DNA of 64,000 bases from Jaapia argillacea MUCL 33604 (taxonomy: Eukaryota; Basidiomycota; Agaricomycetes; Jaapiales; Jaapiaceae). Every line of letters starts with the position of its first letter. The first letter of the stretch is position 1. Below, piece by piece: positions 11,997 through 64,000 of the stretch. The position numbers and the translations under genes were made by a program. Under the pieces are notes generated by a model, which saw only the letters and a list, made by a program, of their open reading frames with translations, ran no database searches and had not been told where the DNA came from. The DNA is taken from assembly GCA_000697665.1 (NCBI GenBank), contig KL197730.1:448651-512650 (forward strand). Reading direction: 5' to 3'.

Positions 11997-14129
11997 TTAC
12001 TCATTCATGCGCACCAGTTCTATAGCATTTGCCATGATCTTCTCCAGTGGCCACCTATCACCGGGCCTGTGCTTCAGGTCCAAGACGTCGCCAATCTCAT
12101 CACAGGCTTTGAGAACGAGATCGATATCGGCTTTCGTGTGCGCGGCGCTGACACAGAAGCGGACACGACTGGTGACAAGGGGAGTAGCTGGATAAGCCAC
12201 GACAACGACAACGATAGGTGTTTCCATCGAACGCATCATGCGAGAGAATAGCGGCATTTTGCCAGGGTTGAAAAGCAACAAGGGGACGATGGGAGAGTCA
12301 ACGTGACCGTAAGTGATGAACCCGAGTTTCTCGAGACCACGCGAGAGATAACGGGAGTTGAAAGCGAGACGACGAAGACGGTCGTGTCCTTCCGAGCCAT
12401 CACGTAACGCGGGAGGTAAGTCCAGCCAAGCAGGAAGAGATGAAGCGGGTGCGGGGCCTGGATGTTCGTAACCGTCTGAATCTGTGAGGCGGAGTGTTGA
12501 AGCGGAGGATGACGATGAGGAGGGAGAGAAGGACGCGGGAAGGGAAGGGGAGACGCCCATAATGCTTGCCATGCTAGCAATGACTTGGACTAGGACGGGG
12601 GGCGTCATGGCTTCTGCGTAAGCACCGGTGTGGCCTCGCAGACGCAGACGGTCGACGAGAGTCTTTGATCCGGCAATGTAACCACCAGCTGCGCCAAAGG
12701 ATTTCGTGAAAGTACCCATGAGAATGTCGACGGATCGGGGAGGGATGTTGAAGTAGTCAGTAACGCCACGACCGTGAGGGCCAAGAGCACCGATGGAGTG
12801 GGCTTCGTCAATGAACAGGTAGAACTGTCGAATAAAGTCAGCCAACGAACATTTCCAATATAGAAGCAAGCGGACCTTGTATTTCTTCTTGAGCTCCATG
12901 ATGCGGGGAAGATTGACAAGAGTTCCCTCCATACTGTACAAGCCCTCGACGATAATCAAGATCTTCTTCCAGGGACGATGGGTCTTCGGTTGACCCTGAC
13001 TGATGACTTCCCGCAACAACGATTCCAAGTCTGCCATATCATTATGCTTGAACATCCTAACGTTGGCTCCACTCAACCGCACTCCAAACCGGATTGACGC
13101 GTGATTCAACTCGTCCGAGATGACCAAGCACCCCTTACCAACCAACGCAGGAATGATCGTCGAGTTGGTGGCGAAACCCATTGAACTGATGAGGGAATCC
13201 TCCATGCCGACGAATTTGGCTACGAGACCCTCCGCAGTCGCGTGCAGGTCCAAACTCCCACCTTCCAACCTCGTACCGCAAGCTGAGACTCCGTAACGCT
13301 TGATACCCTCCTCCACTGCATCCGCACACCCTCCCCGAGCTTGTGCGAAACCAAGATAGTTGTAGGATGAGATATTGAGCGCTCGAACGCGTTTGCCAGT
13401 GGGTTCGAACGTTACGTTGAAATCATGAGAGATACGGTCCAAAAGAACGATCGTACGGCCAGCAACGCCGGTAACCGGATAAGAAAAGCAGTCGTCCAGA
13501 CGCGTTTTCAAGCGACGGGTATAGAAAGAGTCGAAGTCGGAATTAAGAGGTGCGTAACCCTGCAGCTGACTTCAGAAAAACTCGAGATAAATAGAGGAGT
13601 AACTCACGTTAACGGGTATAAGGTGCTGGAAAGTGCTGGGTTTGAAGTGTTTGTGGAAGAAATCGCGGATGTGACCGATGCAGATTAAGATTATATAGCT
13701 GACATATGTCGTGAATAAGATATAGTAGGGTGGGTCTTGTTCCAGCCAAGGGGTCACCGGTACACCCTGGGGGTGCTGGGAGGTGTATCGGTAGTCACTG
13801 TTGGCGCAGTGACCGAATTCCGAGTGTACGGTGGTGAAAACCTGTTCAGAAGTTGGTGGGATGGGAGGATAGTAGAGAATATTGTCCTCGTGATCACTTT
13901 CTTCCGCCAAAACCGTGTCTTCCGACGACGTTGTCACTGATGATGACAACGACAGTGCAGGAGTAGCCGTGGGCGTGCCACCATGAGCTCTGGCTCGCGC
14001 GTCTGCTGCCCGAACCGCAGACAGGTATGAAGCTGCGGTCGATAAGTTGGACGAGGACTTTTTCTTGAACATCGATGGAGTCGGCGACGGAGGGTTCAAT
14101 GCCATGGGCGACGGCATTGGAGAGGGCAT
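11997..14129 (-). CDS. LCB2: Serine palmitoyltransferase subunit 2 (LCB2)
   Basis: It is the PLP-bearing subunit of serine palmitoyltransferase, which condenses L-serine and palmitoyl-CoA to 3-ketosphinganine at the ER, the first step of sphingolipid synthesis. The model is complement(join(11997..12824,12876..13559,13608..14129)), 677 aa. The N-terminal 100 residues are Ser/Thr-rich and disordered, followed by a hydrophobic membrane segment (YYILFTTYVSYIILICIG). The catalytic domain has SSYNYLGFA, GTRLEGG, DELNHASIR, FIDEAHSIGALG and the PLP lysine in GTFTKSFGAAGGYIAG. A Ser/Pro-rich insert of about 55 residues follows MGVSPS. The intron at 12825-12875 is 51 nt with no stop, so the frame reads through. 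It is removed here because KKKYK-FYLFIDEAHSIG is the conserved order. Family identity is very secure. Confidence 0.94.
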
Positions 14130-15964: not shown

Positions 15965-16928
15965 NNNNNNNNNNNNNNNNNNNNNNNNNNNNNNNNNNNN
16001 NNNNNNNNNNNNNNNNNNNNNNNNNNNNNNNNNNNNNNNNNNNNNNNNNNNNNNNNNNNNNNNNNNNNNNNNNNNNNNNNNNNNNNNNNNNNNNNNNNNN
16101 NNNNNNNNNNNNNNNNNNNNNNNNNNNNNNNNNNNNNNNNNNNNNNNNNNNNNNNNNNNNNNNNNNNNNNNNNNNNNNNNNNNNNNNNNNNNNNNNNNNN
16201 NNNNNNNNNNNNNNNNNNNNNNNNNNNNNNNNNNNNNNNNNNNNNNNNNNNNNNNNNNNNNNNNNNNNNNNNNNNNNNNNNNNNNNNNNNNNNNNNNNNN
16301 NNNNNNNNNNNNNNNNNNNNNNNNNNNNNNNNNNNNNNNNNNNNNNNNNNNNNNNNNNNNNNNNNNNNNNNNNNNNNNNNNNNNNNNNNNNNNNNNNNNN
16401 NNNNNNNNNNNNNNNNNNNNNNNNNNNNNNNNNNNNNNNNNNNNNNNNNNNNNNNNNNNNNNNNNNNNNNNNNNNNNNNNNNNNNNNNNNNNNNNNNNNN
16501 NNNNNNNNNNNNNNNNNNNNNNNNNNNNNNNNNNNNNNNNNNNNNNNNNNNNNNNNNNNNNNNNNNNNNNNNNNNNNNNNNNNNNNNNNNNNNNNNNNNN
16601 NNNNNNNNNNNNNNNNNNNNNNNNNNNNNNNNNNNNNNNNNNNNNNNNNNNNNNNNNNNNNNNNNNNNNNNNNNNNNNNNNNNNNNNNNNNNNNNNNNNN
16701 NNNNNNNNNNNNNNNNNNNNNNNNNNNNNNNNNNNNNNNNNNNNNNNNNNNNNNNNNNNNNNNNNNNNNNNNNNNNNNNNNNNNNNNNNNNNNNNNNNNN
16801 NNNNNNNNNNNNNNNNNNNNNNNNNNNNNNNNNNNNNNNNNNNNNNNNNNNNNNNNNNNNNNNNNNNNNNNNNNNNNNNNNNNNNNNNNNNNNNNNNNNN
16901 NNNNNNNNNNNNNNNNNNNNNNNNNNNN
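15965..16928. other. Assembly gap (964 N)
   Basis: There is a continuous run of N. Frames that cross it are not evidence of coding. The gap lies in a gene-poor stretch beside a transposase-like pseudogene, which suggests a repeat that did not assemble; that is inference. Confidence 1.
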
Positions 16929-17742: not shown

Positions 17743-20700
17743 TCACATACTGGGCCGCCTTCGTTTCATTGAGGATTGCGAGGAGGGGATTGTGACTGAG
17801 TGCCGCTTCCGAGAGTTGCCACCCTGAGATGGAGGCACGGCTATGGTATTCTGTGCAGCTAATACTGCTGGAAGATTCTTTGGGGGGATCTTGCTGTCAA
17901 AAATACCAAGTGAGTGCTCTTCGTCATCCGAGATGAACATTGTGAAGAGTAGAGGATCGGGAGGGAGAGGCCCATCCTCAACGCCGTCGACTGAGAATTC
18001 CGGATGGACAGTACGAATATGCTCAGGCATATTGTATTTCCAAACAGCCGTGCGCATGCCTCCGACCTCGCCGGTGCAGCCCGCGAAAGTACAGAGAATT
18101 GGAACATTGGTACATGGGCTTGCGGAAGTTGAGCAGAGGGTGGACTTGTATTTGAATGTTTCCGCGTGCTGACAGTTGCTGCATGCTTGAGGGTGGGCAC
18201 CTTTTGTGAGGAAAACTTCAGAGCAGTTGGTGATGCCTGATCACCCGCAGAAACCACAGGGCATTGCATGTCCAACCTAGAATGGGTTTCAGGTCACGAA
18301 ATGAATAGATAATGTTGAAACGAGAACGTACTCCACCACCACGAAGCTCCTCCTCAACTCCCCGCATCGCTCAAAGTATATGAGCCCCAACGTGATGGCG
18401 CACTTTCTTCAGATCCGATAGGAGGGCGAGGCACTGATAGCAGTGGAATACCTGGGGTTTGTCCTGCTGCTGGGCTTGTAGAGCCACAGAACAAGGTTCT
18501 GAGATGAGAGTGGGAGTGCCTAAAGGCGAATGGGACATATCAATAAGGAGGCAAAAAAGATGAATTGAGAAAGACTGAAACTACCCACCAGAGATATCAA
18601 CATATGGGAAGGTTTCGTTTGAACAGAACCTTGGCAAGAGCGAAATAGCTTTCTTGTCCCTCACGTTCTCCCAAAGTTTTTCCAACACTAAGTTCAGCTC
18701 CTCCCCCAACATCTCCCACGTCAAGCCGGATTCGTTAAGCTGCGATAGGGTGGTGTCTGGCAGAACACCTTTCATATCTGCAACACGAGGATTAATAGGT
18801 TCGCATACGGAACTGTTCACCTTGACGGCGAGTGCCTTTCGCGTGGCTTTGCCCACTGGATTTGGATTGGCTGAGTGGAGGCCGAACTTCACGAATGTGC
18901 CATTCCAAATCCACCTCCCTTGTGAGTCGGAGTCGCGGACATCATCAGATGACAACGTGATCATCTGCATCCCGAGAAGTTGGCCGGTAATTTTGATACC
19001 TGCAGCGGCATGAGGCAGTGATTGACACTTGACATGATCAACAGTGGCACCTCTCTCTTTGAGGGAGATGCTCTTCAGGATTGTGAGCGCAACTTGATCT
19101 TCGCAGATAACAAGGGTGGTGAACAGATCACCGGGGAGGAATGTATCTGGATCGAGCAGGTCTTCAAGACGGAACGTGAATAAGATGGTGTCGTCGGAGT
19201 AGATTCGTACACGAAATATCCTCTCGTGGGATTTGCGACAGTACTCTGGCGTGATGATGATTCGACAGAGCGAAGACTTATGGATCTTCTTTCCGTTGAC
19301 CTCAATATACTGTGATGCATTGCGAGCAGCCAGTGAAGGAGGGAGGCGATGTTCATCTGGCTCGTCAAGCATGTCTACCAACTCAACGTGATGAATGTCA
19401 TCATCTACATTGGGGCAGGGAGTGTTGTCATCCAATTTGAAGACTGCAGCTCGATTGGTAGTGGCATCTTCAATGGACATCACATGGTCTTCGAGATCAT
19501 TGTCATTGTGTCCTGTCGGTACTGGACGTGAAGGAGATGATTGCAGTGAGGTGGCAAGAGGGACCGGAGATGATGACGGTGAGTCAGCTACGATTTCGGG
19601 TTCCATGGACCAGTCAGGTTCTGTTGAGACCCCAGGGTATTTTCCATCGCCAAATGGTTTCAACATATCTACATTACGGCAGGTGTCAAAAATGGAGGTA
19701 AGGTCAACAGAAAGACCAATGGTTTCGAGAGTGGCAAGGGCTTGATCACGGCCAGTGTACCAGCAGGATTCCAGGTGAGGTTTCCATGTCGTTGCATCAC
19801 CATCCCAGCTCTCGGGATTCAGATGGTCAAGCTTGTTGGACGATGTGATTTTCAGCCGTCGAAAGCCTTGATCAAGGTTAGGGTGTCGCGCGAGAACACT
19901 ATCGATATCGACCGCAGCTCTGAGACGGTCAACAAGCTCTTTAAAGTTGAAATTGGGGTTGTGACTGCCTTGCATACGGACTCAACCAAAGAGGGCCTCG
20001 AGACGGTCATCACCCAACCAGAAGAGAAATAACTTCTGGTCGCCATCCTCCACCTGCTGCTTGGCGACACAGAAGAAGACATTCTTCACAGTGGTTTGTG
20101 TATCCCCATAGAGCTGGGCTGGCATCAAATTTACCCGATATTCGTGGAAGAGAATGAACACCATGTGAGCATACTTGCTCAAGGCTGTCAGCTGCTGTGC
20201 GAGACACCAGTCGTGTTTCGAGAAGCCATCTACAAATGCAGAAAACATTTCGCCGATAACACGAATGATTTTGATCTCCTGGAGGACTCCTGGATTTGGA
20301 TTGGGACCTTCAATCGCAGCAACAGCACGGATGAGGTCAATGGCGCGGGGTACATCTTGTGCATTGGCAGGGTTCATCAAGGTATTGATTTCGTGTTCCG
20401 AGTGATGTCCAGTTCGAAGAAGGTGTTGAATTAAGATGTGGCGATTAACGATTGTATTGCCAACAACCATACCCTCCTGCGTTCGCAAGAGCTGAGACAT
20501 GCCTGAGAGTAAACTTCAGCGATACATTGCAAATCACGGCCAAAATACGTACGTTTAATCTCATGCTTCCAGTCGAAATCGGCAGTGATATCGCCATCTC
20601 CAACATAAAGGTTCAGCCCTGGTAAACGACTGAGACGTCCATATAGAGGATGTTGAGGTTCGATCATATGCTTCATGAACAGTAGGTACATCATGGCTCG

Positions 20701-23016
20701 GCGGCTTGCAGCTCCATCTGACGAGAAGCTCTTTATTGGACCAAAGATTGGTGCTCCAACCTCGTTCCACGATGTAATCACAGTTTCGGCAATACGAGCA
20801 GATTCCTCTGGAGTTTCGGCACCACAAGTTGGTGACACAACAACTGGGAATGCGCCACGAAGTTGAGTACCGAACGATGCCAGGGCGATGACGGAAGCTT
20901 CCTTTCCGTAATGAACTTCGCCCTCGTAAAGCGCTCGCACAATGCTTTCCGCACTCTCCAGGGACGTAAGCCAAGTCGAGATGCGGTGAACATGTTGTCG
21001 ACACATCCCCCCCACTGCATCCAAATGGCCAAAATAGCACGCTTGTTCCTCTTCCGCTACCTCATCCCAAAGCATGCACATTCCTGAGGGAAAGGGAGAC
21101 TCGAGTGCCTTTGCCCGAGGAAGAAAATTTTCTCGCATGTTGAAAAGAACTTCGTCCAATGTCGGTACTCCAGGGCTTGGCATGATTCGAGTGAAGGTCT
21201 TGTGGTTCTTGATGGCAGTAATGCTGGGAATCGAGATGTAGTGACTGAGGGCGTAGAGTAGCTTCCGCCCACCAAGGTGGAACACCAGGAGGGCAATGTC
21301 AAAGTCTGTGGTATCGTAACCTCTAGCGTGATAGATGCCGAGAAGACTGTCTTTGAGTTTGGAAATGATTTTCGATAGACTAGCGCCTTCTTTCAGGGCT
21401 TGTCGAATGAGCTGCTGGAGACGTGGTACATCTCCTGTTGCTACCGCCATTAAAAACCGCCTGCAATCCTGTACTCTTTGCATAAGAGAAGCACATCTTT
21501 GACCAAGGTTCAAACTCTAATCAGAGGTGGTCAGGTTTGGATCAAAAAAAGAGGAAGAGACTCGACATACTTCACGCTTCAAGGCCAAAATAGTCTCATC
21601 ACGCTCCTTCAAAAGTTCTCGAAGCTGTTCATGGGTAAGGTACTTGTGGTTGGTGTGGGCTGACACCTTCGCAGCCATTGAAGCAAGCCGCTCAACCTCC
21701 TTCGTCACTGACTGACATTGCAGGCAGGGGGAGCCATCAGATACCAAATACATGTTGCAATGCTTGGAGCGCACACGAAAGCTCTGGCCGTTCTGCTCCA
21801 CAGCACAGAATTGATACCCGATGGTTGACGGAGAGTATTCATGGCGCTGAAATGGGTACGATTCGAAAAAATGGTCCCTTGGCCAACGAAGGGGAATGCC
21901 GGGACAGTGGGTGAGGTTTGAAGACAAATGACTCGGCGAGGGCGAAGGGAGGGTGCCATTAGAGTGGTGTAATGTCGAATCATCACTGAGAATCATGTCG
22001 ATGTCCCTAGAAAGAGGTAAATTTCAATGATGTTGCGAGCGAGGACAAATTGTTACTCACGACGATGAATCGACATCCTCAAAGTCCTTTGGCACCATAA
22101 TGTCGAAAGCCACAAGAGGCTGGCCAGACTCCACCCAATCTGGCGACATCGGGCTTGGAACAGTGGGCTGTGGAAGCGGCGAAATGGGAAATAAGGCCTC
22201 TCGAGCTTGCGAGGCTCCAGAAACCTCCATTTCCTGAGACCTAACTCGACACTTCTTCACACTTCTCATGTGACCGATCAACGGCCCCATGTTCATCTTT
22301 CGCGATCCCGTCAAGATCCAATGTGAGCACTTGGGACAACGAACATGGTATGTTTTGTTTTTACCCAGCTTGTCCCATTGTAGATTCTCTGCTCGAAGAG
22401 ACGGCGTGGACTCGGGAAGAATCGAAGGATGTGTAGGTAGAGTTGGGAAGGAGGGAAGGAGGAATGGTGGGGTTGGGGCTGATTCAGTGGGGAAGCTAAG
22501 TGGAGCAGACTGGACCAAAGTCGAAAAAGCCATATGTGCTTGGTCGGGAGTCGAGTCATTCGAATACACGAAGGTGGGTAGTGTAGTACTAGTAGTGTTT
22601 TGGGGTAGAAATCGAAGGGAGTTGGAATCCCATTGGGACCAATCTGGTTCAACACTGTAATCTCGAGCTAAAAACTCGGAGATTGCCTGAGACGCATCAA
22701 AAGGTGCGCCGCCCTCGTAGTCGTCGACAAGCATGGACTCATCGTCGTCAGCAATAGCGAGGGGCTCTTCTAATTCGCGTGTGGCATTGAAATTGTGAGG
22801 GAGAGAATTGTCGTAAGTGTAGTCTGCTAGCAGATTTGATATTTCGAGCTGGGGAGATGTTGTTGTGGTGGGGAACGTCGATCGGGAGTCACAGAGTTCG
22901 GCGGTCGAGAAGGGGATCAAAGATGGGGAACTAAAGTCAAGTCTATCCGGCTTGGGCTGCACGCTGTCTGGGAAGGAAACAGCTGTCGTCGATGGAGGAG
23001 CTCCATCACCCAACAT
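17743..23016 (-). pseudogene. Transposase-like gene with three in-frame TGA codons
   Basis: The reconstructed structure is complement(join(17743..18276,18332..18519,18589..20502,20553..21516,21571..22006,22061..23016)), about 1664 codons in consistent phase. The N-terminal half is Ser/Pro-rich, then comes a BED-like zinc finger (CPKC, then a 20-residue gap, HMRSVKKC). The core has SFSSDGAASRRAMM and LPGLNLYVGDGDITADFDWK, followed by EGMVVGNTIVNRHILIQHLL. This order resembles the RNase H-type core of P-element/THAP9-like transposases, by pattern only. Near the C-terminus are a C2H2-like motif (CYQC, then HHVGAH) and another Cys-rich block (CGFCG). In-frame TGA codons lie at 19982-19984, 18371-18373 and 18241-18243. 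Otherwise the frames and splice sites are intact. I know this protein family as repeated in agaricomycete genomes. A domesticated or read-through gene is possible, but decay is likelier. Confidence 0.65.
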
Positions 23017-24652
23017 GTGCAGTTTTGACGCCCCTTCTGACCGCGGCGAACGACTGGTACTGCAGTGCGACCAACGCGCCAACAAGCACGGCGTTTGGTT
23101 GGAAATCTCTCACGATATTTCCACGTGGGATCAACAGGTCGTCATATTGTGTATTTTCGGTTGCTCAAGGTCTCAGACTGCCCGTCTTTTCGCAAGCATA
23201 CACAATGTCATTGCATTATTATGTTCGTGTTGTTCGTTTGGTGAGAATGCCACTCAAAAAAAAAGTAAGAGAAAATGCGCGACATGACGCGAAAGTGGCT
23301 GAAAATCGACCCCGAACACCACTAGGCTATCCACTTGCTCAGAGGACGATGTTCCCGATACAGATCTTGGACCCCTCTTGGGACAGAACGCAAAAGATTG
23401 GGGTCGATTGTTCTTGTTGAGCAGTAGAAGGGAGGAAGTAAGTACACAGTCCCAGTGCTCAGTGGGCGTAGAGAAATCGAGGACCTTCGAGGACCGAGTT
23501 CAACTCGCCATTGAACAGGCGTGAACGATGGGTCACAACCACGAGATTCATGTCACATCGCCACGTCCTCGCTCAGCATACAACAACTCATCGACCTGAC
23601 AAAGTACACGTCTATTCACTCTCCATTCACTGGAACTGCGCTCTCCGATAAGTCATAAATCTGAGGTACGGAATGAGATTCAAACTAGCATGTACTACAT
23701 TGTCTCACTGCGTTTAGCACAGATTCATCACCACGCTTCGTCTGAGTCTCGCAACCTCAGGCTGATGTTCGTATTATGTCTGTGAGCTTTTGCCCCGCGT
23801 AAAACAATATAATTCTCTCCATATCTGTGGCTCCGCAGGATCGCAAGCTGACGAAAAGATTCCAAACTAAATCGCAAGTGTTCCCTCGGCAGGTCCATGT
23901 CGGAAACTTCCAACAGCTCGCTCAATAAAATCATATCTGTCGACACTTTATCAAGCGAAAGCTCCGACCCCGTTTCTCCTGGCGATCCTAGCAGCGTCAT
24001 GTATGTCCCACTCATGGCTTCTGAATTCTGAATCTCGGTCGTCGACCCGACATCGTCGGACTCCGTGAAGCTGCTCCCTACCTCGCCGATCTCCCTTCGT
24101 GTGGCACGCTCAACAGCACCACCGTTGTGTCGTTGGCTTTGTTGCCTGCGGTCTCAAGCAACTTCGGTCGTTCAGGTGTAATGTCGCCGTCTGCCTACTT
24201 TTGTTCAACGGACATGTGAAGACTATTCAATGGATCCTGGTTACCTCAGAATTCGGCGAGGGGAAAATGTATTGGATAGGATCGATCATGATCATGGACG
24301 GTAAGTGAATGACAGAAACAACTGGAGGTGATAGCACGTATGTAACCTTTGAGTTGCATCTACGGAGTATTCAAGGGCCTCGATGGCAGGGTATTGAAAC
24401 ACACACGTTTGATAATGCGAACCGAGGAGTTTGTGAGACTATAGTAACAATATCCGTGCAGTATACGAGGGTTTTGAGTCTGAAGTGGCGCAGAATTGAC
24501 GGAGTGGTGCTTGTTTTGGGACGGCCACGTGGTGCAGTCTTGAGTGAAGGTCTGCAGACCAAGCTTGCTCTTCAGATCTACCCTTTGAATATTCACTTGG
24601 ATACTACCGAACTACGTTCTTTGCTACGCTGGCCAGAGAGTGCTGTGCGGCC
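23017..24652. other. 1.6-kb intergenic region between divergent genes
   Basis: This is the 5' flank of the minus-strand transposase-like gene and the 5' flank of the F-box gene at 24653. A minus-strand frame at 23728-24015 (95 codons) and some plus-strand frames exist, but no domain or intron chain supports them. No repeat was recognised. Confidence 0.35.
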
Positions 24653-40837: not shown

Positions 40838-42615
40838 CTAAGAACTAGCAGCACCGCCATACTTCTCCATAAACTTGAGATGGAAAGCCTCAAGCGCTCC
40901 AACATACTCCTCAACACCAGGGCACAAGCATGTCAACCTATAGTAGTTGTGTCCAGGCTTCTTCCCGAAGCCCTCTCCAGAGACGACGCAAATACCAGTC
41001 TCGTCCAAGAGCCTGAGCGCATAGAAGGTATCGGGGCTCTTCCCTGCCTCTTCCGCGGCCTTGATCGCGCCCTCTGGCAACTCGAGCTGAGGGTAGAGGT
41101 ACAAAGCTCCTGGCGAGTTGACACACTTGACACCAGGCAGCTTGTTAAGCCTCTCCGCCATGATCCCAGTTCGCTGAGCGAGTGCCCGGTGAATAGTATC
41201 GGTCTCCTGTTTCCAAAGAGGATACGATTCTGAACCCTCCTTTGGTGGGCGCACCATACAATCCACACCAATTTGACCCAACAAAGGCGGGCACAAACCG
41301 ACGGAGACCATCTTGTAGATGAGAGCCAAGATCTCATCGGAGATGTTGGTGCATTCGAAGTAACCACCACGACGACCACATTCGCCCATGACACCCTTGG
41401 AGATGGAGTGGAAGGATACGAGGGCGATGGGAGAGTCGAGTCGACGAACGATCTTTTTGAATGAGGTGAAAGGGTGCGTGACGGGTTGATGGAGGTTACT
41501 CTGGTAAACTTCATCGGCGAGGAGGACGAGACTGTGCTTCTCGCAGAGCTTGACGAGTTTCTCCTGGGTGACCTCGTCGAGTAAAGCGCCGGTAGGGTTA
41601 CCAGGGTTGATAACGACGAGGGCTTTCGGTGCGACCCCATCTTTGGCAGCCTTCTCGATTGCCGCTTCGATGGTGTCAAGTGATGTCGACCATTCATGTG
41701 TCTCGTCAAGGTAGTATGGGAGAGGGACACCTCGGTGTTGAGCGAGCGTGGCGGTATAGAGGGGATATTGGGGGATGGGGATAAGGATACCGGATTTGGG
41801 AGGAGTGATAAGCAAGTTAATGAGGAGGGATACACCAGCCGACGCTCCGCCAGTAAGGAAAATATGATTGGGGTTTGCGGGGTAGCCATCGCGCTCTGAA
41901 AGGATAATCAAGCGTATCAGCATCTAACTCGAATTGGGAAGTGGTACGACAGAAGGGTCGATTCGGGATGGATGCGCCAAGGGCGGATCCAAACTTTGAA
42001 CGGAACATACGGAAGAAACAGGGAAACAACAGAAAACGAGCACCAGATGACTCAACGCCCAATCGATGAAAGACGCGCACCTTCGATGAATTTTGCAACA
42101 TTCTTCCGGATTATAGGCACACCCTGGCTGTGCGAGTATGCACCAATCGAGCCAATCTCATCCCTAAGCTCTTTTGCACGAGCCTTGACATCCTCAGGGA
42201 AAACCTGAGGAGCAAGTTCCGCCAAAGCAGGCCACTCCATCAAGGCGCATACCTATTCAACGTCCAAGACGCCAAATCAGCAACATAGACAAGAAACGAC
42301 ACTCCAACTACTCACCTGACGCGTAAAAGTGATGGGAGGTTGATCCAAACCCTTTTGTTGAGGGTTCCCAATGTTGGAGTTGATGACCTTGGTGAAAGGC
42401 AACCCATTCCCCTCCGTCTTCAAAGCCTCGCGATACTGCTCCGCCTTGATCGCCAACTCTCCACGAACAGCATACTGCACCTTCAAAAGGGCTGGGTTAA
42501 CGTTGTCGAGAGTGAGGGTGCGCATTGTCGTTCTTGAGGAGAGATGGTGGTTTGGTATCAAGGAGGATTTATTACAAGGCCCAAAGCGAGAGAGCAGATG
42601 CTTTCTAGATAGCAT
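40838..42615 (-). CDS. Alanine aminotransferase
   Basis: It is a PLP enzyme that interconverts alanine + 2-oxoglutarate and pyruvate + glutamate. The model is complement(join(40838..41895,42081..42252,42316..42615)), 509 aa, or 479 aa from the inner ATG at 42525. The domain starts TLDNVNPALLKVQYAVRGEL and has SNIGNPQQ, GSIGAYSHSQG, FLTGGASAGVSLLI, INPGNPTGALL, LADEVYQ and the PLP lysine in SFHSISKGVMGECGRRGGYF. The family signature near the C-terminus is GEGFGKKPGHNYYRLTCL. The first 30 residues (MLSRKHLLSRFGPCNKSS...) are basic, with no acidic residue, and look like a mitochondrial presequence. The second intron in gene order (41896-42080) is 185 nt. The stop is 223 bp from the Rrp9 start. 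Family identity is very secure; start choice is open. Confidence 0.94.
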
Positions 42616-47711: not shown

Positions 47712-50051
47712 TCACGAGCCAGTCCACTGTCGCTTCCCTCCCGGGGCTTGGACTGTTACTTGACTGTTCTTCCGAGTACGAACAGATTCCTGGGATGGTG
47801 GCCTTGATCTCGTAATGGGTCTTGACACCGAGGACGACGCTCCTGAACGGGAAACGGACCCACTAGAGCTCATCCATGCACTCGGCGATTCATAACGCAT
47901 CAGGGGATCCTCGGGACTATCATCATCTGCGTCTTCGTCGTCTTCATCTTCATCTTCATCTTCATCTTCATCTTCATCTTCATCTTCGCTATCGTCTTCT
48001 TCTTCATCTTCTGGATCGGACAGGGCTCTCTTCTTTCCTTTCCCTCTGTTTCCCGCCGGCTCTAGAACACGATCGCAAGGATATTCCACTATTGTTTCGA
48101 CATCGTCAAGATGTTCGCAGTGTTCCTCGAGGATGGCGATGACTTGTTCATGGGTGACGTTTCGAGGCTCGTCGCGTTCGAAAGGAGAGATGGAAAAAAA
48201 AAGATGGCGCAGATCCTCGAGGCAAGGTATAAGTTCTTTGAAATAGGGATGCAGGAAGCGAAGGATGTCGGACTGAAACAAGCCTGTTGTAAATGAACCA
48301 GCTTTGGTAACTGCGATGTCTTGAAACGTATCCCCTTTGAACCAAGACTTTAGGCACATCGTAAAGAACTCGGAATTATGTCGCAATGCTCCATGAGGGC
48401 CTCGATAAGCCATGCAAATCCAGATGAGGACGCAGAAAAAAGACTCGAGATCGTGGTCTGCACGATGCACAACCTGGTCGCCACGGTGTAGTATCTCGAC
48501 AGCTATGAAGGGCAATGTTCCCTGAAAAAAACGATATCATGAATCAGTCGGAGAAGCATACTACTTCGATGGAATTAACCGAGGCTTACAGTGCGTTGGG
48601 AGCGGGCGACTTTCCCCTCGTTCCCCTCACCCTCCTGGGCCTTCGACCCCATCCACATTGCAGAATCAAAATCAAATAGGAGCCCAGGACGCCGCGTGGT
48701 TGACGACGATGGGTCACCAGAGGACCCCGGGTGGTCAGTGCTTGGTGGACTCGCTTCCGATGGTGGATTTTCTCTGAGCATAATGTTCCCGTCGCTGATA
48801 TCGCGGTGGAGGATATGATATTTGTTGACAAGTACCTCGTGTGCTGTAGACGAGATGAGAGGGGGGAAAGTGATATCAGCGAATGTACTGACCACGGATG
48901 GCATCGATCAGGCCTTTGGTAAGCTCCTTCTTCGTCGAAAAATATGTAATTGAAACTGCTCCAGGAGTCATGACCAGACGGAGGTGAATCCTTTGCGCCA
49001 TCTTCTGCATCGTCTTGTAATTCGAGGACCCTTTCTCGATGATGGAAGAGCGAATATGATTGGTCGAGTCTTCGATTCCTCTAAATTCGACTCTCTCTGC
49101 GTGGATGAGTGTCGGGATTCCTTTAACGTCCTTCAACGTCCTCAAGAACTCCTCCTCGGTAGTTTCCCGCAAGTCGTCGGCCCAAGAGTCCTTGATGACA
49201 AACTCCTGGCCATCTCGCCCAACCTGCCAGTACACGGGGCCACAGCCTCTCAACGAATAGCTTGTGAACATAGTCGTCAAGATGGTATAGTCTCCAGCGG
49301 AAGTTTCGATTATCCTTTTGCCGCCGACATCTTTGATGGTCGAGTCGTAGCCAATGGCTTCGTCGTCACCGAACATTAGCACCACAAGTAGGCGAAGAAT
49401 TTCGGGGGCATCCTTCTTGTCGTTGAATGAGTAAGAAGTAGATGAGAGCTCGCCTGAACGATCGAAGACGAAAAACCGAAGTTGGGCTTGGCAGGAAACG
49501 AAGCCCAAGACAAAGCGGCGATTATCCTGTGCGGTCCAGACGAAGCGTGCCATATCTGCGAGGTAAGAAGCGGCCTTCCGCATATCCTTCGGATTTGAAG
49601 CGACCTCGTACAACGCCCTGACGTTCTCCCAGCGTTGGTCCTGCTTGGTCAGTCCGGCATCGAACAGTAGTCCGCGAGGATGACGATCTCCTTCAGACAC
49701 AGAAAGAGAGGTTTGATGGTAATCCCCGATAAATTCTCGTTTGATGTGCTGTGCACTGGTGAGCGGTAAGATCGCCTGGCCAAGATTATTGAGGAATTTG
49801 GCGATTTCGCGCTCCTTGTTGTTTTTCACAGAAGACTGAGTGAGATCGGGCAACTTTGTCCACCTTCGCATCGGTATTTTCCTCTTCCGACCACATGGGA
49901 TGTCTTGAACATAATGTAGTGTGGCGGCATTGTCGTCGAGGAAGGTCGTGAGGGAAGAGGGCAAGATGTCAAGTAACATCTCGTCGGAGAAGTAATGCTG
50001 GACAAGGCCAACGACATTATTAATGATTGCACCTTCAAGTTCTGATGCCAT
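47712..50051 (-). CDS. FunK1-type fungal protein kinase
   Basis: FunK1 is a kinase family expanded in multicellular basidiomycetes; its targets are unknown. The model is complement(join(47712..48521,48590..48843,48893..50051)), 740 aa. The long N-terminal lobe has KKDAPEILRLLVVLMF, GPVYWQVGRDGQEFVIKDSW (beta-3 Lys region) and GIPTLIHAE. The catalytic loop is HILHRDISDGNIML. The metal-binding motif is FDFDSA, where most kinases have DFG. Then follow QRTGTLPFIAVEIL and HRADHDLESFFCVLIWIC, the FunK1 C-lobe signature. After the domain comes a strongly acidic run of Glu-Asp repeats encoded by a cttcat microsatellite, then a Ser/Arg-rich tail. The donor at 48892 was chosen because it gives DAIRAHEVL without a stop. 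Confidence is high for family. Confidence 0.9.
47941..47987. repeat. Hexanucleotide microsatellite (cttcat)7
   Basis: Seven consecutive copies of cttcat plus a partial copy lie inside the last exon of the FunK1 kinase. On the coding strand they read as alternating Asp and Glu codons. Length change by slippage would keep the frame and vary the length of the acidic run. Confidence 0.95.
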
Positions 50052-50709
50052 CAAGCGGCCAGCGATGGTATGACGAGGGCCTTGGTTAGGAGAGCAGCGT
50101 TAGGACTCGGAGGACGAGAAACAGCGGCGACTTTGTAGTAGTTGATCAGCCCGAACCTGTTTGCGCAGGGCAGAATGAGACAATGCAAAGCAGGACTTCT
50201 AGGACTCGCCTTTAAATAAAATATTCTGGGCTTGCCAGATACCGAGTTCGACGAAAGTGAGGACGTCAAAGCGTATGGCCAGTTGCGATGAATCTTGGAA
50301 GCGAAACTTGGGAGAACTTAGGGGTGTCACGGTAACATTTCTCGTGATTGTGACTCCACGACTTGCTCTGAACCAGTGAACCACGATGTTGCTTCGACCC
50401 CCGTGCACCAGAAATCATGGTGAATATGCTGAATGTTACAAGCACATTGTCAAGCATGGTTATCATCAACTCTATCACACTTTCCTCGCTCGCGCATGCG
50501 ATTCCAATCGAGTCCATTTACCAAACAGACTCGATTCGAATACCATCTGTGATAACCCGCCACGGTGTAAGTGATGGCTAACATCCGCAAGGAAACTCGA
50601 TCGACATACATAAACCGAAATAACTGTGTATCTTCCCTCGAGCTCAGCTATCTTGTCGCTCTCGTCGACCCTCAAGAACCCTCACCATCAAACTCGACTT
50701 CCCAGAAAT
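50052..50709. other. Divergent intergenic region
   Basis: It lies between the start of the FunK1 kinase (minus) and the start of the AGC-like kinase (plus), so it holds both promoters. Short frames here have no recognised domain. An additional 5' exon for either gene cannot be excluded. Confidence 0.4.
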
Positions 50710-56690: not shown

Positions 56691-58224
56691 ATGGCACACG
56701 TCGTCGAACTATCCGTCGTCCCTCCTCCCCTTCCTTCATCATGGTCCCCTCCAAAACCCTCAGGAAAATCCATTTCTCGTACGTATCTATACCCTCCGCC
56801 CATCATCGAAGTTTATCACTAACAAATCGTTTGGTTTGTTCGTTGATCAGCCCTGGTATCCCGTCGTCTCTTACCAGCCGGACCCGCCTTCCTCGCCCAT
56901 GTCCGCCGAGTAGTCCATGATTTATCGTTTGAAGAACACGATAAACATTTGCAGGAAGAAAAGAAGAGGTTGGCGGAGTTGAATGGAGAGGGTGTCATTG
57001 TTGATGATTTGGGTGTTGGGGATGAAGATGAGACGGAAGAACTGCTTTCTTTGGATCCGAAAGAGTGGAAGGTGGGTGTTTCGCTGTGTGGTACGCTTGG
57101 TGAAGATGTAGGTCCAGAACTGATTTTTGTGGTGGGGTTGTAGAAACAAGATCATTATGCCGTCCTTGGGCTCTCTCATCTGAGATATAAAGCCAATGAT
57201 GCACAAATCAAGATCGCACGTACGTTTCTCTCCCCTCTTCCTTCCCATCAGCAACGGGCGTCTAATCCCCGCCACACAAACAGACCGCAAAAAGGTCCTC
57301 AAACACCACCCAGACAAAAAAGCAGGAACGGCTGGCGACTCAAACGACGACGCTTTCTTCAAATGTATCCAAAAAGCACATGAAGTCTTAACCAACCCTG
57401 AACGTCGTCGTCAATTCGATTCCGTCGACCCATACTACTCCCTCCTCGAAGACGACATCCCGACCTCCTCCCAAATCACCAAAGCTAAAGACCCCTCAAA
57501 GGCGTTCTTTAGGGGCTTTGGACCGGTGTTCGAGAGGGAGGCGAGGTTTAGTAAGGTTGTGCCCAAGGAGGGGGGCGTTCCGATGTTGGGTGGGGTGGAT
57601 GATAGTAAGGAGAAGGTGGAGGGATTTTATGACTTTTGGTATAACTTCGATAGTTGGAGGAGTTTTGAGTATTTGGATAAGGAGGTTAACGAGGGAAGTG
57701 ACAAGTGGGTATTCTGTCTCTCGTCCTTACATCCTCCTTCTTCTCGTTCCACTCTTCCTTCCCCCATATTTCTGAATACTGACAATACCCCCCAGCCGAG
57801 ACGACAAACGCTACACAGAAAAGAAGAACAAAACCGAACGCGCCCGTCGCAAAAAAGAAGACATCGCGCGTCTCCGCTCAATAGTAGACCTAACACTCTC
57901 CCTCGATCCCCGTATCAAACGAATCAAGGAAGAAGAAAAAGCCGCTCGAGAGGCTAAGAAGAAGGGCAAGTTAAACTCTGCTAGTGGTACTGCTACTCCG
58001 AATGCGAAAGAGGATGAGGAGAAGAAGAAGGCTGAGGAGGCGAAGAAGAAGGAGGAGGAAGAGTTGGTGAGTTTCTTTGTATGACTTGCTTTGACGGAGA
58101 GTGAGGACTGACTCGTTGGGTTTTTTGGGGAAAGGCGAAAGCTGAGGCGAAGAAAGCGAAAGCTGCTGCTGCTAATGCGAGGAAGAAGGCTCGTCGTGCG
58201 GAACGTGCTACTGACGGGCCGTAA
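56691..58224 (+). CDS. ZUO1: Zuotin (ribosome-associated J-protein, Hsp40)
   Basis: Zuotin pairs with the Hsp70 Ssz1 in the ribosome-associated complex and stimulates Hsp70 Ssb at the tunnel exit. The model is join(56691..56778,56851..57071,57144..57219,57284..57704,57796..58066,58135..58224), 388 aa. The N-terminus (VVELSVVPPPLPSSWSPP) gives way to RRLLPAGPAFLAHVRRV and [20 protein letters not shown]. The J domain has the HPD motif in KKVLKHHPDKKA. The zuotin homology domain follows: VFEREARFSKVV, FYDFWYNFDSWRSFEYLD, NRDDKRYTEKKNKTERARRK. The C-terminal part is a long charged, coiled-coil-like helix rich in Lys, Glu and Ala that could bind rRNA. Introns are 64-91 nt. It lacks SANT domains, as fungal zuotins do. 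Identity is certain. Confidence 0.95.
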
Positions 58225-59351
58225 TCTGGGTTCAGGGTCTCTATGGAATCACACCCAGGGGCCTGCCAGAATCCCCATTCGGCTCGCTCTTACAGGACCT
58301 CCTCTGCTTCGTCTTGGATTTCGTTTGTCACTGCTGTAGCGCTCGTGTCTTTTTTGTCATTTCCTGTTGTTGTTTCCATCGATCGCGATATGTAGACTGT
58401 TGTCCCTCACTATCTTTCCCGTAATACCTCCGGGTTGAGCCAATGTATTCATGCGCCTCTGGGTATCAGCCGTGTGGCTATTTAGGGTGCACTTGATGTC
58501 ACTGTCAGGAAGTTGAGGGAGGAAGGTTGTTCGTTCGCCCGTTGGGCGGCGTCCATTCATATCCGACAACGAATTCAGATCCTTTTTCATGAACGCACTG
58601 TACGAGGCCCTGGCGACCGCGCTGGAATCGATCTGGCTTGTTGGCTGCGCGTTTTATTCCACTAATGCACGAACCGATGGACGCATAATTGGGTGAACGT
58701 TATGTAACAACGACGAAGTCCATTTTCCCACACAGTTACTTACTGTGAGTTCCATGTTCAACAGGTTCTAATCATCCGCCTGCCTGTGACAATGATTCCT
58801 GCCAAACAACACTGTCCTACCCATCATATCAATATCGAATCTAGGAGCATTATCAGAGCTCGGAAATCTCGTTTAAGTCGGCAAGGCTGCAGTCGTCGAC
58901 GTCAAGATCGGACAGCTCAAGGCACTTCAACCACTGTAGCGCCGCTGGACAATGTCAAATCGACGCACTGAAGGCGAAGGTAAGTCACTACAATCTTTCC
59001 TTTGCGAGCAAGGCATTGACGATGTCGTCCTCAGTTGCAAGCCCACCATCAACACTTTGTTCAATCGAATGTTTCGAATGGTTTGGAAAGGTACATGTGA
59101 ATCCCTATTGGCGTGTTGTTCATTGATGCGGGACCGGCAGTATCCCGTTTACCATCCTCAAACACTGAGACTTATGCTGCCACTGAGCGCCTCCTAAATA
59201 GAGCCAAGCGCCCAATGCTATTTCTGGTCTTGTTGCCTGTAAACACGAGGCTTCCTTGTGAGCGAACCTGCTGCACAGCACTCAGTCTTTGCCTACTCCC
59301 ACATCGCTACCCCTAACAGTTTACGATGGCAAGCGATAACAGTCTCCGTAC
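58225..59351. other. Region upstream of the NACHT sequence, possibly with decayed 5' exons
   Basis: The left half is the 3' flank of zuotin. From about 58840 on, the plus strand has coding-like pieces: ARKSRLSRQGCSRRRQDRTA followed by QGTSTTVAPLDNVKS, and after an ATG at 58969 MSNRRTEGEG with a good donor (gtaagt, 58979). They could be N-terminal exons of the NACHT gene, but stops and frame changes prevent a consistent model. An internal frame shift near 59415 fits decay. Confidence 0.35.
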
Positions 59352-61161
59352 GTGGTGTTCTTGTTGATGCCGAGATCCATCCTGATCTTGAGTATGCCAA
59401 CCCGTTGGATAGGTTCAATCACCGACGCACTGAAACCAAAATATGTTCCCGACGCCGCATATGACAGCCACGGCGGTTCCTTCTGTCTGAAGGACACCCG
59501 CGAGGATGTTATCGAGAAGGTTTTGGATTGGGCAGCCGCGTCGGACAATGGTCCCCGCGTTTTCTGGCTGCATGGTCTGGCTGGTTTGGGAAAGTTGACT
59601 GTCGCCCGCACAGTTGCTGACAGGCTCGAGAAGGCGGATGGTCTTGGACCCAAGCTGGCTGCCACATTCTTCTTTTCACGAGATTCCACAAACTGTTCCA
59701 ACATCGGCAGGTTCTTCCCTACCATTGCTCAACAACTCGCTACATCACATACCTTCATTTGTGAAGATATGGACAATATCCTCAAGAAGGACCCGTACAT
59801 CCTGGATAAAGATCCTCAGCGCCAGTTCAAGACTCTAATCCTTGATACGATCCGCAGTTACGCAGGATCACTTCCCACTCCCATTGTTGTTGTTGACGCC
59901 CTCGATGAATGCGAACACCAAGATGCTGATCAACTCATTGAGCTCCTTCTTGAAGCCTTCAATGATTGTCACCTTCCAACTGCCGACAAATGCTCACCAA
60001 TTTGCAACCATCATCTTCCCATTTGCTTTTTCGTCACGAGTCGAACTGACACTTACGAGCCCTTTTGCCACTCGGACACATCAATCCGACCCCTCAATCT
60101 ATGGGAACATTCTGCTAACACTGCTATTTGCAAATTCTTTGTGACGGAGCTCACGAACATACGGAAGAAGAAGCAGTCCATGATAGCTGTGAAGGATGCT
60201 TGGCCATCACAGCTTCAGCTTGACTCACTTGTTGAGAAAGCAGCAGGGTTGTTTATATATGCCTCCACTCTTGTCAAGTTTGTTGAGGGGAAAGGAGGGC
60301 ATCCTGACAAGAAGCTGGAGGAGGCTATGGAACATCATACTGGCCTTGATGGCCTCTATTGTCAAGTTTTGTCTGATGCAGCATGTAGTGCCAAACCTCA
60401 TCTGAAAGCTCTCTTCTGGCACATCATTGAGGCTTTGCTATTCCTCCGTGATCCGTGAGGGGTTGGTGACCTTGCATGTTTACTTCGGGTCAAACCTGAA
60501 GACATTCATGCTGCATTGGAGGGTTGCGGGTCAATTATCATGGTCCCCGATGATATGTAAGATGATCATCTCCTTCTACACTGTAGTGCTGACCTGCTGT
60601 TGCTAGCAGTGGAACCACAGGATTCCAACCAGTTATCCAGCTCCTTCATGCCTCTCTGGCCGACTTTTTTATGGAGAAATCCTATTCTGATGGTTACTCT
60701 GTGGATGCTAGAGAGGGCCACATCCATATCCTGAATGATTGCATTCAAATCATATCTGGAAATTTCTCCAATTGCTCCATTGATGATAACTCCACTGATA
60801 GTGATGACCGTCTTTCCAGTTGTGATATTACACAGGCATTGTCTTATGCCTGCACAAACTGGTGCCACCATTTTTGCAGTATCTTCTATTTGAAAACACC
60901 ACTTTTAGAGTTGGATGAAAATCTTCATAATAATTTCCCCCTATTTCTGTCAAACATCAATGACAAGTGGTTTGATGTGTGGGTAAAGAAATGTGGGCTG
61001 TATATTCCAGATGAGGATATTTTGTGTGGTGTTAGATTGATGAAGGTGAGTCAGCTGTGTTACAATCTTAAAGTTCTATATCTTATATGAATGTATATGT
61101 GTAGAGTCACTTTATGAAGGAATACCATATTGCTCTGTGGGGTCTTTTGAAATTATTTAAG
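59352..61161 (+). pseudogene. NACHT-type STAND NTPase, interrupted by TGA; 5' part unclear
   Basis: NACHT NTPases are signalling ATPase/GTPase switches; fungal ones act in non-self recognition and cell death. The clear part is join(59352..60556,60610..61045,61105..61161) in consistent phase; the true start lies upstream and was not found. Before the domain come KPKYVPDAAYDSHGG and TREDVIEKVLDWA. The P-loop is WLHGLAGLGKLTVA, where Leu replaces the usual Ser/Thr after the Lys. Walker B is PIVVVDALDECEH, and a sensor-like FFVTSRTD follows. A TGA at 60456-60458 interrupts LFLRDP-GVGDLACLL, yet the frame resumes with HASLADFFMEK and EYHIALWGLLKLFK. The last exon ends in phase 0 at 61161 and leads directly into the intron-like array. 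It may be a pseudogene, or have a sequencing error or readthrough. Confidence 0.7.
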
Positions 61162-64000
61162 GTGACTGGTTTTCATAAAACATGAAATGAAATTGAACAG
61201 TATGGTACTGTTTTTAGAAAGTAAGGTAGCCTGATGGTTCTGAAGCTGTTCTGTTGACTTTTATGTGGGGTGTATTACCACTAGAAAGTGGGTGCAGTTT
61301 GAAGTGATAAATAACTATACTGATCTAGAATAATCTGATTTCTTTAGGAGGTGAGTATTCAGTATTGGGGTGATCTATCCTTCTTCTTATTAGCTAATGA
61401 CTTCATTTGTTAGAAAGTATGTAACAGCTACTATACTGTCTGGTAGAGCACTAAGCTCATCTGGCCATGACTGTTTGCTTAACTTAGAAGGTGAAATGAT
61501 GCTTCTGCAGTAGTAAATTCTCCAGCTAATGTGGCATGACCTATTTCTCATCTTAGATTGTGAGTGGATACTGCTGCTGCTGGGGATTCTCAGGCTGACC
61601 TGCCATGGCTTGGTTCTTAACATAGCTTGTTAGTGGATACTTCTGCTGCTACTGATCCCTAAGCTGATCTGGCTGTGGCTGGTTTCTAAACTCAGCAAGT
61701 GAGTGGATGGTCCTGCTGCTGCAGATCCTTGAGTGGATCTGGCCATGACTTCTTTCTTAACTCAGGAAGTGAGTGGATGCTCCTGCTGCTACAGATCCTT
61801 GCACTGATCTGGCCATGGCTTGCTTCTCAACTTAGAAAGTGAGTGGATGGTCTTGCTCCTACAGATCCTCAAGCTGATCTGGCCATGGCTTGTTTCTCAA
61901 TATAGCATGTGAGTGGATGCTTCTGCTACTGCAGATCCTCATGCTGATCTAGCCATGACTTGTTTCGCAACTCAGGTTGTGAGTGGATGCTCCTGCTCCT
62001 GCTGCTGCAAACTCTCAAGCTGATCTGGCCATGGCTTGTGTTGTAACTTAGGTTGTGTGTGAATGCTCCTGTTCCAGGAGATTCTCAAGCTGATCTGGCC
62101 ATGACTTGCTTCTCAACTCAGATTGTAAGTGAATGGTTCTGCTGATGCAGATCCTCGAGCTGAGATCACTATGGCTTATTGCTCAACTTAGGAAGTGAGT
62201 CAACACTCCTACTGCTACAGGTCCCTACACTGATCTAGCCATGGCTTGTTTCTCAACTCAGCAAGTGAGTGGATGCTCATGCTGCTGCAGATCATCAAGC
62301 TGATCTGGCTATGACTTGTTTCTCAACTCAGACAGTGAGTACCTGCTCCTGCTGCTATAGAGCCTCAAGCTGATCTAGCCATATCTTATTGCTCAACTCA
62401 GCTTGTGAGTGGATGCCTCTGCTGCTGCAGATCCTCAAGCTGATCTGGCCATGGCTTAATTCTCAACTCAGGATGTGAGTAGATGCTCCTGCTACTGCAG
62501 ATCCTCAAGCTGACCTGGCCATGACTTGTTTCTCAACTCAGCAAGTAAGTTCATGGTCCTGCTACTGCAGATCCTCAAGCTGATCTGGCCATGGCTTCTT
62601 TTCAACTGAGATTGTGAGTGGATGCTTCTGCTACTGTAGATCCTTGAGCTGATCTAGACATGCCTTGTTTCTCAACTCAGGCTGTGAGTGGATGTTTCTG
62701 CTATGAATCCTCAAGCTGAGCTCGCCATGGTGTGGATCTCATCTCAGGCTGTGGGTGGATGGTCCTGCTGCTGCAAATCATCAAGCTGATCTTGCCATGG
62801 CTTGCTTCTCAACTCAGGCTGTGGGTGGATGCTTCTGCTGCTGTAGATCCTCAAGCTGATCTGGCCATGGGTTGTTTCTCATCACAGCATGTGAGTGAAT
62901 GCTCCTGCTACTGCAGATTCTCAAGCTAATCTGGCTATGGCTTCTTTCTCAACCTAGGAAGTGAGTGGATGCTCCTGCTACTGCAGATCCTCAAGCTCAT
63001 CTGGCCATGGCTTGTCTTTCAACTCAGGAGGTGAGTGGATGGTTCTGCTGCTACAGATCCTCAAGTTCATCTGGCCTTGGATTGTTTCTCAACTCAGGAG
63101 GTGAGTTGATGGTCCTGCTGCTGTAGATTCTCCTGCTGATTTGGCCATGGCTTGTTTCTCAACTCAGCCTGTAAGTGGGATGGTCCTGCTGCTGCAGATC
63201 CCCAAGCTGATCTGGGCATGGTTTCTTCCTCAACTCAGGAAGTGAGTGCATGCTGCTGCTGTTGCTGATCTTTAAGCTGATCTGGCTGTGGCTTGTTTCT
63301 CTACTCAGGCTGTCAGTGAATGGTCCTGCTGCTGCAGATACTCAAGCTGATCTGGCCATGGCTTGTTTTTCAACTCAGAAAGTGAGTGGACAGTTCTGCT
63401 GCTGCAGATCCTCAGGCTAATCTGGCCATGGCATGTTTCCAAACTTAGCAAGTGAGTGGATGCTCCTACTCCTGCAGATCCTCAAGCTGATTTGGCCATG
63501 GCTTGTTTCTGAACACAGGCTGTGAGTGGACACTCCTGCTGCTGCAGATCTTAAGCTAATCTGACCATGACTTGTTTGTCACCTCAGGCTGTGGGTGGAT
63601 ACCTCTGTTGCTATCAATCCTAAAGCTCATCTGGCTATGTCTTTTTTCTCAACCCAGCTTGTAAGTCAATACTCCTGCTGCTGCACATCCTCAGACTGAT
63701 CTGGCTATGACTTGGTTCTTAACTCAGTGTGTGAGTTGATGCTCCTGCTGCTGCCGATCCCTAAGCTGATCTGGCCATGGCTTGTTTCTCAAATTAGCTT
63801 GTGAGTGGATGCTCCTGTGGCTGTAAATCCTTAAGCTGATCTGGCTATGGCTTGTTGCTCAACTTAGGATGTGAGTCAATGCTGCTGCTACTGCAGATAC
63901 TTAAGCTGATCCAGCCATGGCTTGTATCTCAACTCAGGAAGTGAGTGGATGGTCCTGCTGCTGCAGATCCTCAAGCTGATCTGGCCATGGCTTGTTTCTC
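61162..64000 (+). repeat. Tandem array of intron-like units separated by single triplets
   Basis: From 61629 on, units repeat mostly every 70 bp (range 67-76) to the window edge. The consensus begins gtgagtggatgctcctgctg, has a CTGAT branch-like site about 30 nt before its end, and ends tttctcaactcag. Each unit is followed by exactly three nucleotides and then by the next GT. Triplets start at 61218, 61285, 61348, 61414, 61488, 61557, 61626, 61696, 61766, 61836, 61906, 61976, 62052, 62122, 62192 and so on to 63938: forty in all. All 40 donors keep GT (38 fit GTNNGT); all 40 acceptors keep AG (39 are YAG). None of the triplets is a stop. The first five units are strongly diverged in sequence but keep the layout. 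Since 70 is not a multiple of 3, direct translation of the array has no stable frame. I read it as introns with 3-nt exons; a plain minisatellite is the alternative. Confidence 0.85.

Follow-up and report, generated by a model that had tools for sequence, protein, structure and literature searches.

A candidate array of at least 40 single-codon exons on a NACHT gene of the basidiomycete Jaapia argillacea

Codon-sized exons in truffles and elsewhere

Iotti et al. 2012 (Fungal Biol 116:261) reportedly dealt with the nank (NACHT-ANK) superfamily of the truffle Tuber melanosporum, a work that we know via the papers citing it. In the passages concerned, such papers credit it with alternatively spliced, codon-sized (3-bp) mini-exons in the NACHT-ANK or NLR genes of this fungus, their number being given as multiple, tens or dozens (PMC4986451, PMC10197012, PMC3689799, PMC9815663). 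Going by these passages, codon-sized exon arrays on fungal NACHT receptors are already known from truffles and the kind is not new. A 2024 paper says that no functional microexons had been described before in filamentous fungi, and its reference list includes Iotti et al. 2012 (PMC11121469). Elsewhere, splicing of exons as short as 1 and 3 nt is documented, and the single-nucleotide exon of Arabidopsis APC11 is explained by intron definition and stepwise removal, according to excerpts of PMC4674806. This exon shows that spliceosomes can cope with exons far below 50 nt, but it is one constitutive plant exon and not part of an array.

In the basidiomycete Jaapia argillacea MUCL 33604, we analyzed a stretch of 64,000 nucleotides (contig KL197730.1, positions 448,651 to 512,650; hereafter the window) that ends within an array of short, intron-like units. 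We put at about 75% the probability that this array is made up of single-codon exons, at least 40 of them, which are separated by spliceosomal introns of ordinary appearance and about 67 nt and follow in frame on a fungal NACHT (NLR/STAND) gene. As in the truffle nank genes, the gene is of the NACHT class of fungal receptors (Pfam NPHP3_N at 1e-23 and NACHT at 5.4e-7 on segment 59340-60455), the codon-sized exons run into the tens (40/40 units by sequence grammar), and diversification of the C-terminal part by splicing, as proposed for the truffle, may occur here too. The two differ in that Tuber has ankyrin repeats while none was seen here, in a window that ends in the array. To our knowledge, a comparable layout is otherwise known only from reports on truffle immune-receptor genes. 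By this comparison, the Jaapia array probably works like the 3-bp mini-exon arrays of the truffle NACHT-ANK genes and would be an instance of them. Among the literature matches listed, which lie mostly outside subscription journals, none describes such arrays in a second lineage. A search for relatives with one sequence pattern each in viral_contigs and genome_contigs returned no match, and of eight stretches in viral_contigs that matched a peptide pattern from NACHT segment 59340-60455, none was confirmed.

Two further systems invite comparison. The micro-exon genes (MEG) of Schistosoma, as outlined in part of PMC10526429, combine exons of 3-81 bp with introns of up to 5 kb; they too hold many tiny exons and are thought to vary their proteins by splicing, but they belong to an animal parasite, encode secreted proteins and have long introns and mixed exon sizes. 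In the Jaapia array, in contrast, the candidate exons are uniformly 3 nt long (40/40), the introns measure 56-73 nt and the gene is of the NACHT class. At recursive-splicing ratchet points, as described in sections of PMC4674806 and PMC8605326, an acceptor likewise adjoins a donor and the junction formed by one splice serves the next, but no exon lies between the two sites, which are found inside long introns.

Layout of the array and its surroundings

On the forward strand, 40 of 40 consecutive units at 61162-63940 have the form GT...AG plus exactly three nucleotides plus GT, as the sequence-only reading of this DNA had claimed. A further unit starts with a donor at 63941 and is cut at 64000 by the window end, which falls inside the array and before any terminal exon. 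Candidate introns are 56-73 nt long, with 67 nt in 28 of 40, and units measure 59-76 nt; the earlier range of 59-74 bp had the same lower bound and an upper bound that was too low. The lengths are those of ordinary introns, again in line with that reading: a strict search of the rest of the window, which required GT[AG]NGT, CT[ACG]A[CT] and a length of 40-109 and so serves as a yardstick for lengths only, found 15 frame-restoring intron candidates (median 72 nt, 10th-90th percentile 54-101 nt) as compared to two donors in a reversed-sequence control. Acceptors in the array are TAG or CAG with a single GAG in unit 21, exactly as listed before, while the former list of donor variants has to be extended by GTGACT, GTAAGG and GTGAAA. 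The branch-like site that had been noticed in most units, [CT]TNA[CT], is a short motif and common by chance when taken alone; 37 of 40 units have it 9-40 nt upstream of the intron end (it is absent from units 1, 9, and 23), and 34 have it at 27-28 nt, the full motif being missing from that position in the other six.

Tracing chains of units with a fixed exon length k of 0-12 nt along the forward strand of the array gave 40 units for k=3, 35 for k=7 and at most two for every other length, the k=7 chain being due to the second GT in GTGAGT. Compared with ratchet points (k=0), the spacing is fixed at three, and three nucleotides would stay behind each time. In the remaining 61 kb, both strands included, 3-nt chains of at least four units begin at 9 of 6971 GT positions and none reaches five; by chance, a 3-nt chain of four units arises at about 1 GT in 800, and the longest chain for any other length tried (k=0-6) has five units. 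The 40-unit layout (GT...AG-NNN-GT, 61162-63940) is real and beyond chance. Coding read-through of the array was ruled out by stops in all six frames.

TRF, which is blind to splicing, reports the same array as a tandem repeat at 61453-64000 with a period of 70 and 36.4 copies. Units 5-40 (61417-63940) form this repeat family, with a consensus of 70 bp and one short intron plus one 3-nt candidate exon in each, and units 5-8 are similar to the consensus (z 7.2-12.7 against shuffles). Units 1-4 (61162-61416) keep the GT...AG-NNN-GT grammar with intron bodies that have no recognizable kinship to the repeat (z 1.7, 1.2, 1.9, and -0.2 against shuffles, none significant), and they link the last exon of the NACHT gene to the repeat in register. 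Taken on their own, with grammar and register as their support, these four units are weak evidence.

The upstream gene was modeled from sequence alone. Its NACHT-encoding exon (at least 59340-60556, forward strand) yields the Pfam NPHP3_N and NACHT matches, and its reading frame runs on to 60556 save for one in-frame TGA at 60456-60458 (translation FLRDP*GVGDLACLL). A frame switch and the sequence GTAAGA...CTGAC...TAG indicate a 50-nt intron at 60557-60606, followed by a second, open coding exon (60607-61045) that has no Pfam match; 60605-61045 holds no stop in its own frame as opposed to 6 and 18 in the other two, which has a chance of about 1e-4. Pfam likewise gave no match at E 0.001 for 60593-61087, and no ankyrin repeat was seen in this part; the array itself leaves the window. 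A putative 59-nt intron (GTGAGT...TAG, 61046-61104) leads to a 57-nt exon (SHFMKEYHIALWGLLKLFK, 61105-61161) that ends in phase 0. This model, together with the Pfam NACHT match, bears out the earlier claim that the exon before the array ends in phase 0 on a NACHT gene.

Of the 171 stop-to-stop segments of at least 100 aa in the window, 40 were compared with Pfam. Two housekeeping genes were recognized at 12000-13571 and 40841-41923 (-), which are like serine palmitoyltransferase 2 (PDB, 7e-158) and alanine aminotransferase (PDB, 1.6e-101), respectively. A run of N at 15965-16928, an assembly gap of 964 bases, accounts for the low G+C of the block around it. On the minus strand, a chain of large open reading frames at 18584-23109 (466, 177, 361, 168, and 350 aa) has no Pfam match, and the first of them no PDB match either. 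A fungal protein kinase (Pkinase_fungal, FunK1), split into two or more pieces, lies at 47715-50099, also on the minus strand, where the open segment 47715-48536 contains a TCTTCA hexamer repeat of 11.8 copies (47941-48011). The zuotin segment at 57184-57954 is 62.4% identical (78/125) to PDB entry 7z3n_C and 50.4% (64/127) to 7x3k_A; the two entries, which we take to be from Chaetomium thermophilum and Saccharomyces cerevisiae, share 61.6% (77/125) with each other, and in both, alignment to the zuotin of the window opens gaps of 5, 5, and 4 residues. Of six proteins of the window compared with PDB, zuotin alone had two fungal chains for such a comparison. A truffle zuotin would be expected to stand clearly closer to 7z3n_C than 7x3k_A does; this one gene, thin evidence as it is, thus leans away from Pezizomycotina and probably toward Basidiomycota, unlike the truffle genes.

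Splice-site conservation and triplet content

Units were rotated to put the splice sites inside and then aligned, giving 39 rotated units; the main column set comprises r06-39 (34 units), with r01-05 set aside as diverged. Ten of the 70 well-filled columns are invariant, namely the branch A, the acceptor A and G, the donor G and T, donor +5/+6 and three other T columns. Diversity is 0 in the five core columns (branch A, AG, GT) as against a mean of 0.237 over all columns, which 3 in 100,000 random sets of five columns match, and 0.62 in the triplet, which 6 in 100,000 reach, in a test that treats columns as exchangeable. No other contiguous triple of columns is as variable as the triplet (the next, columns 40-42 with 0.44, overlaps it), and triplet columns 1 and 2 (0.661 and 0.672) are the two most variable single columns. 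Column 3 (0.526) falls below three intron columns (0.528-0.556), so the triplets do not clearly outpace the freest intron sites. The refuting condition named beforehand, splice-site columns as variable as the rest, did not hold: AG, GT, donor +5/+6 and branch A are invariant, and this test came out in favor of the earlier reading. Across all 39 rotated units, of which r01 is misaligned at the acceptor, core columns average 0.021, the triplet 0.637, and all columns 0.302. The parse itself demands AG and GT; the chain nonetheless spans the TRF array without a break.

A neutral 70-bp minisatellite in the 3' flank, with an ancestral unit that chanced to hold AG-NNN-GT, would explain the regularity, as the array is a tandem repeat by TRF and any motif can be repeated by tandem copying alone. 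Such copying sits poorly with splicing columns that are conserved by position around a highly variable triplet, and also with the relations among the units: with the triplet left out, the 34 units differ on average by 22%, similarity is no higher between neighbors than between units far apart, and units with the same triplet do not tend to have similar flanks (Mantel r -0.07, P 0.95). With no neighbor effect and the triplet unlinked to its flanks, recent homogenization does not explain the column pattern. Moreover, the grammar reaches into units 1-4, which are not recognizably repeat, and the junction with the NACHT gene is in register and in phase 0. AG, GT, and branch A were held while the rest of the units drifted, and selection for unit-by-unit splicing fits the conservation pattern better than a neutral minisatellite, which we regard as highly improbable.

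Other signals were looked for in the same letters. A contrast in transitions to transversions (0.26 in the triplets as against 1.28) was dropped, since it follows from column composition. Conserved RNA structure was rejected as well, the consensus fold of 25 of the 40 units (those among units 11-40 with 67-nt introns) reaching only -0.71 kcal/mol, and neither an Rfam family at gathering thresholds nor a tRNA was found in the whole window.

The triplets are of 14 kinds over 40 units with no stop, a count that had been given correctly before; the commonest are GCT (6), AAA (5), and GAA (5), and all 40 read in order give KKEKKILQEKHVVIEQTLDQIAAAHEEEPEAKQAALCLDE. That no stop occurs is weak evidence by itself, column shuffles expecting only 0.27 stops. 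Triplet content is nevertheless non-random, by tests that were chosen after the data had been seen, are uncorrected and treat related units as independent. Position 1 has a single T in 40 (P 4e-6 against the T content of the array) and position 3 no C in 40 (P 3e-5). The missing C probably reflects CpG loss, because in this position it would form a CpG with the G of GT, and of 649 C in the array only 4 stand before a G. Among 2411 column pairs, positions 2 and 3 show the strongest dependence; this rank replaces a Fisher test (P 1e-6), which was set aside as its split had been chosen after the triplets were seen. Usage of the triplets as codons of 16 open reading frames of the window (5792 codons, in part putative coding sequence) exceeds that of column shuffles (P 2.5e-4). 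NYA triplets are scarce (1 observed, 6.4 expected, P 6.5e-4), which matters because NYA followed by the donor G would create a YAG that competes as an acceptor. The dependence of positions 2 and 3 is explained by codon use and also by acceptor competition, which are inseparable here; under either, the triplet would be handled as an exon. The triplets may be under diversifying selection. The helix propensity of their residues (P 0.012) was too weak to be used.

These properties also bear on the proposal that the array is a single ratchet or composite intron, in which one long region is spliced out, either recursively in steps or in one go, with the triplets seldom if ever appearing in mRNA. Stepwise removal would conserve the same splice sites, and the variability of the triplets, close to that of the freest intron columns, is what unused sequence would show. 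Ratchet points, however, are juxtaposed acceptors and donors in the section of PMC8605326 that describes them, whereas k=0 chains of the array stop at two units or fewer; removal at once, from the first donor to the last acceptor, needs no internal splice sites and would not conserve them; and the triplet content is constrained, with a T-poor position 1, linked positions 2-3 and codon-like usage. We therefore consider a ratchet or composite intron improbable, if better placed than the minisatellite.

Retention of any single intron leads to a frame shift or a stop in 40 of 40 cases: the retained intron brings an in-frame stop in 36, has a length that is not a multiple of three in 34 and is both open and a multiple of three in none. 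Four triplets end in AG (GAG three times, AAG once; 61348-61350, 61488-61490, 63028-63030, and 63098-63100), which makes YAG-RAG-GT at these sites tandem acceptors of the NAGNAG kind, where the second choice would drop the codon.

State of this gene copy and proposed use of the array

CpG observed/expected is 0.68-1.07 in 2-kb blocks up to 60000 and 0.69 for 59340-60455, and falls to 0.17 at 60456-61161 and to 0.00-0.03 within the array; TpG/CpA is elevated (1.58) at 61488-64000. In 150-bp steps, the drop starts near 60100 (3 observed, 7.9 expected), is uneven (5 as against 9.3 expected at 60400-60549) and is nearly complete from 60550. Loss of CpG over the 3' part of the NACHT gene and the array suggests long DNA methylation and deamination; since the pattern is like the remains of long methylation, the locus may be silenced. 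The Walker A consensus is GKS/T, from which the GLAGLGKLT of this gene departs. The in-frame TGA, the departing Walker A and the strong CpG loss speak against a working receptor in this copy, which may be silenced or broken.

The array could accordingly be read as a relic, in which single-codon exons worked until recently and the copy is now methylated, CpG-decayed, and TGA-stopped. This reading concerns the copy at hand and not the type of structure, and it overlaps with the explanation by single-codon exons. The TGA, the Walker A and the fall in CpG all agree with it, but AG and GT are kept in every unit although the aligned units have diverged by 22%, exon 60607-61045 is still open, and the single TGA at 60456-60458 can be an allele or an assembly error, on a scaffold that has a 964-N gap. 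We judge the relic rather unlikely on balance, while giving it more weight than the ratchet or composite intron.

The sequence shows the layout, the conservation by position and the non-random triplet content; we infer that the single-codon exons would be spliced and translated and that isoform diversity and a role in recognition may follow. In the proposed mechanism, each intron of the array would be recognized by intron definition and the introns excised in succession, so that each unit leaves a single codon. Any unit could then be included or skipped with the frame kept, as each candidate exon is 3 nt in phase 0, and the tail would become one residue longer or shorter; full use of the 40 units would add the tail KKEKKILQEKHVVIEQTLDQIAAAHEEEPEAKQAALCLDE. 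It is tempting to go further and propose a basidiomycete NLR with more than 40 single-codon exons, arisen independently of the truffle genes or anciently shared with them, in which splicing is under purifying selection, the codon is free or diversifying and every tail residue can be included or skipped. This fuller proposal is tentative, and we would give it slightly less than an even chance.

If the units are spliced, 2.8 kb would encode about 40 residues, each by an exon of its own, and up to 2^40 in-frame tails could theoretically arise by skipping, which would constitute a post-transcriptional route to fungal receptor diversity. The array bears on the smallest exon that a spliceosome with short, intron-defined introns can repeatedly handle. 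Fixed splice columns around a free triplet provide a sequence-only test for such arrays that is runnable on any fungal genome. The Jaapia array may extend the phenomenon to a second phylum, and with a second lineage the truffles would no longer stand as an isolated case. The layout could let a fungus vary the tail of an immune-receptor-like protein by splicing.
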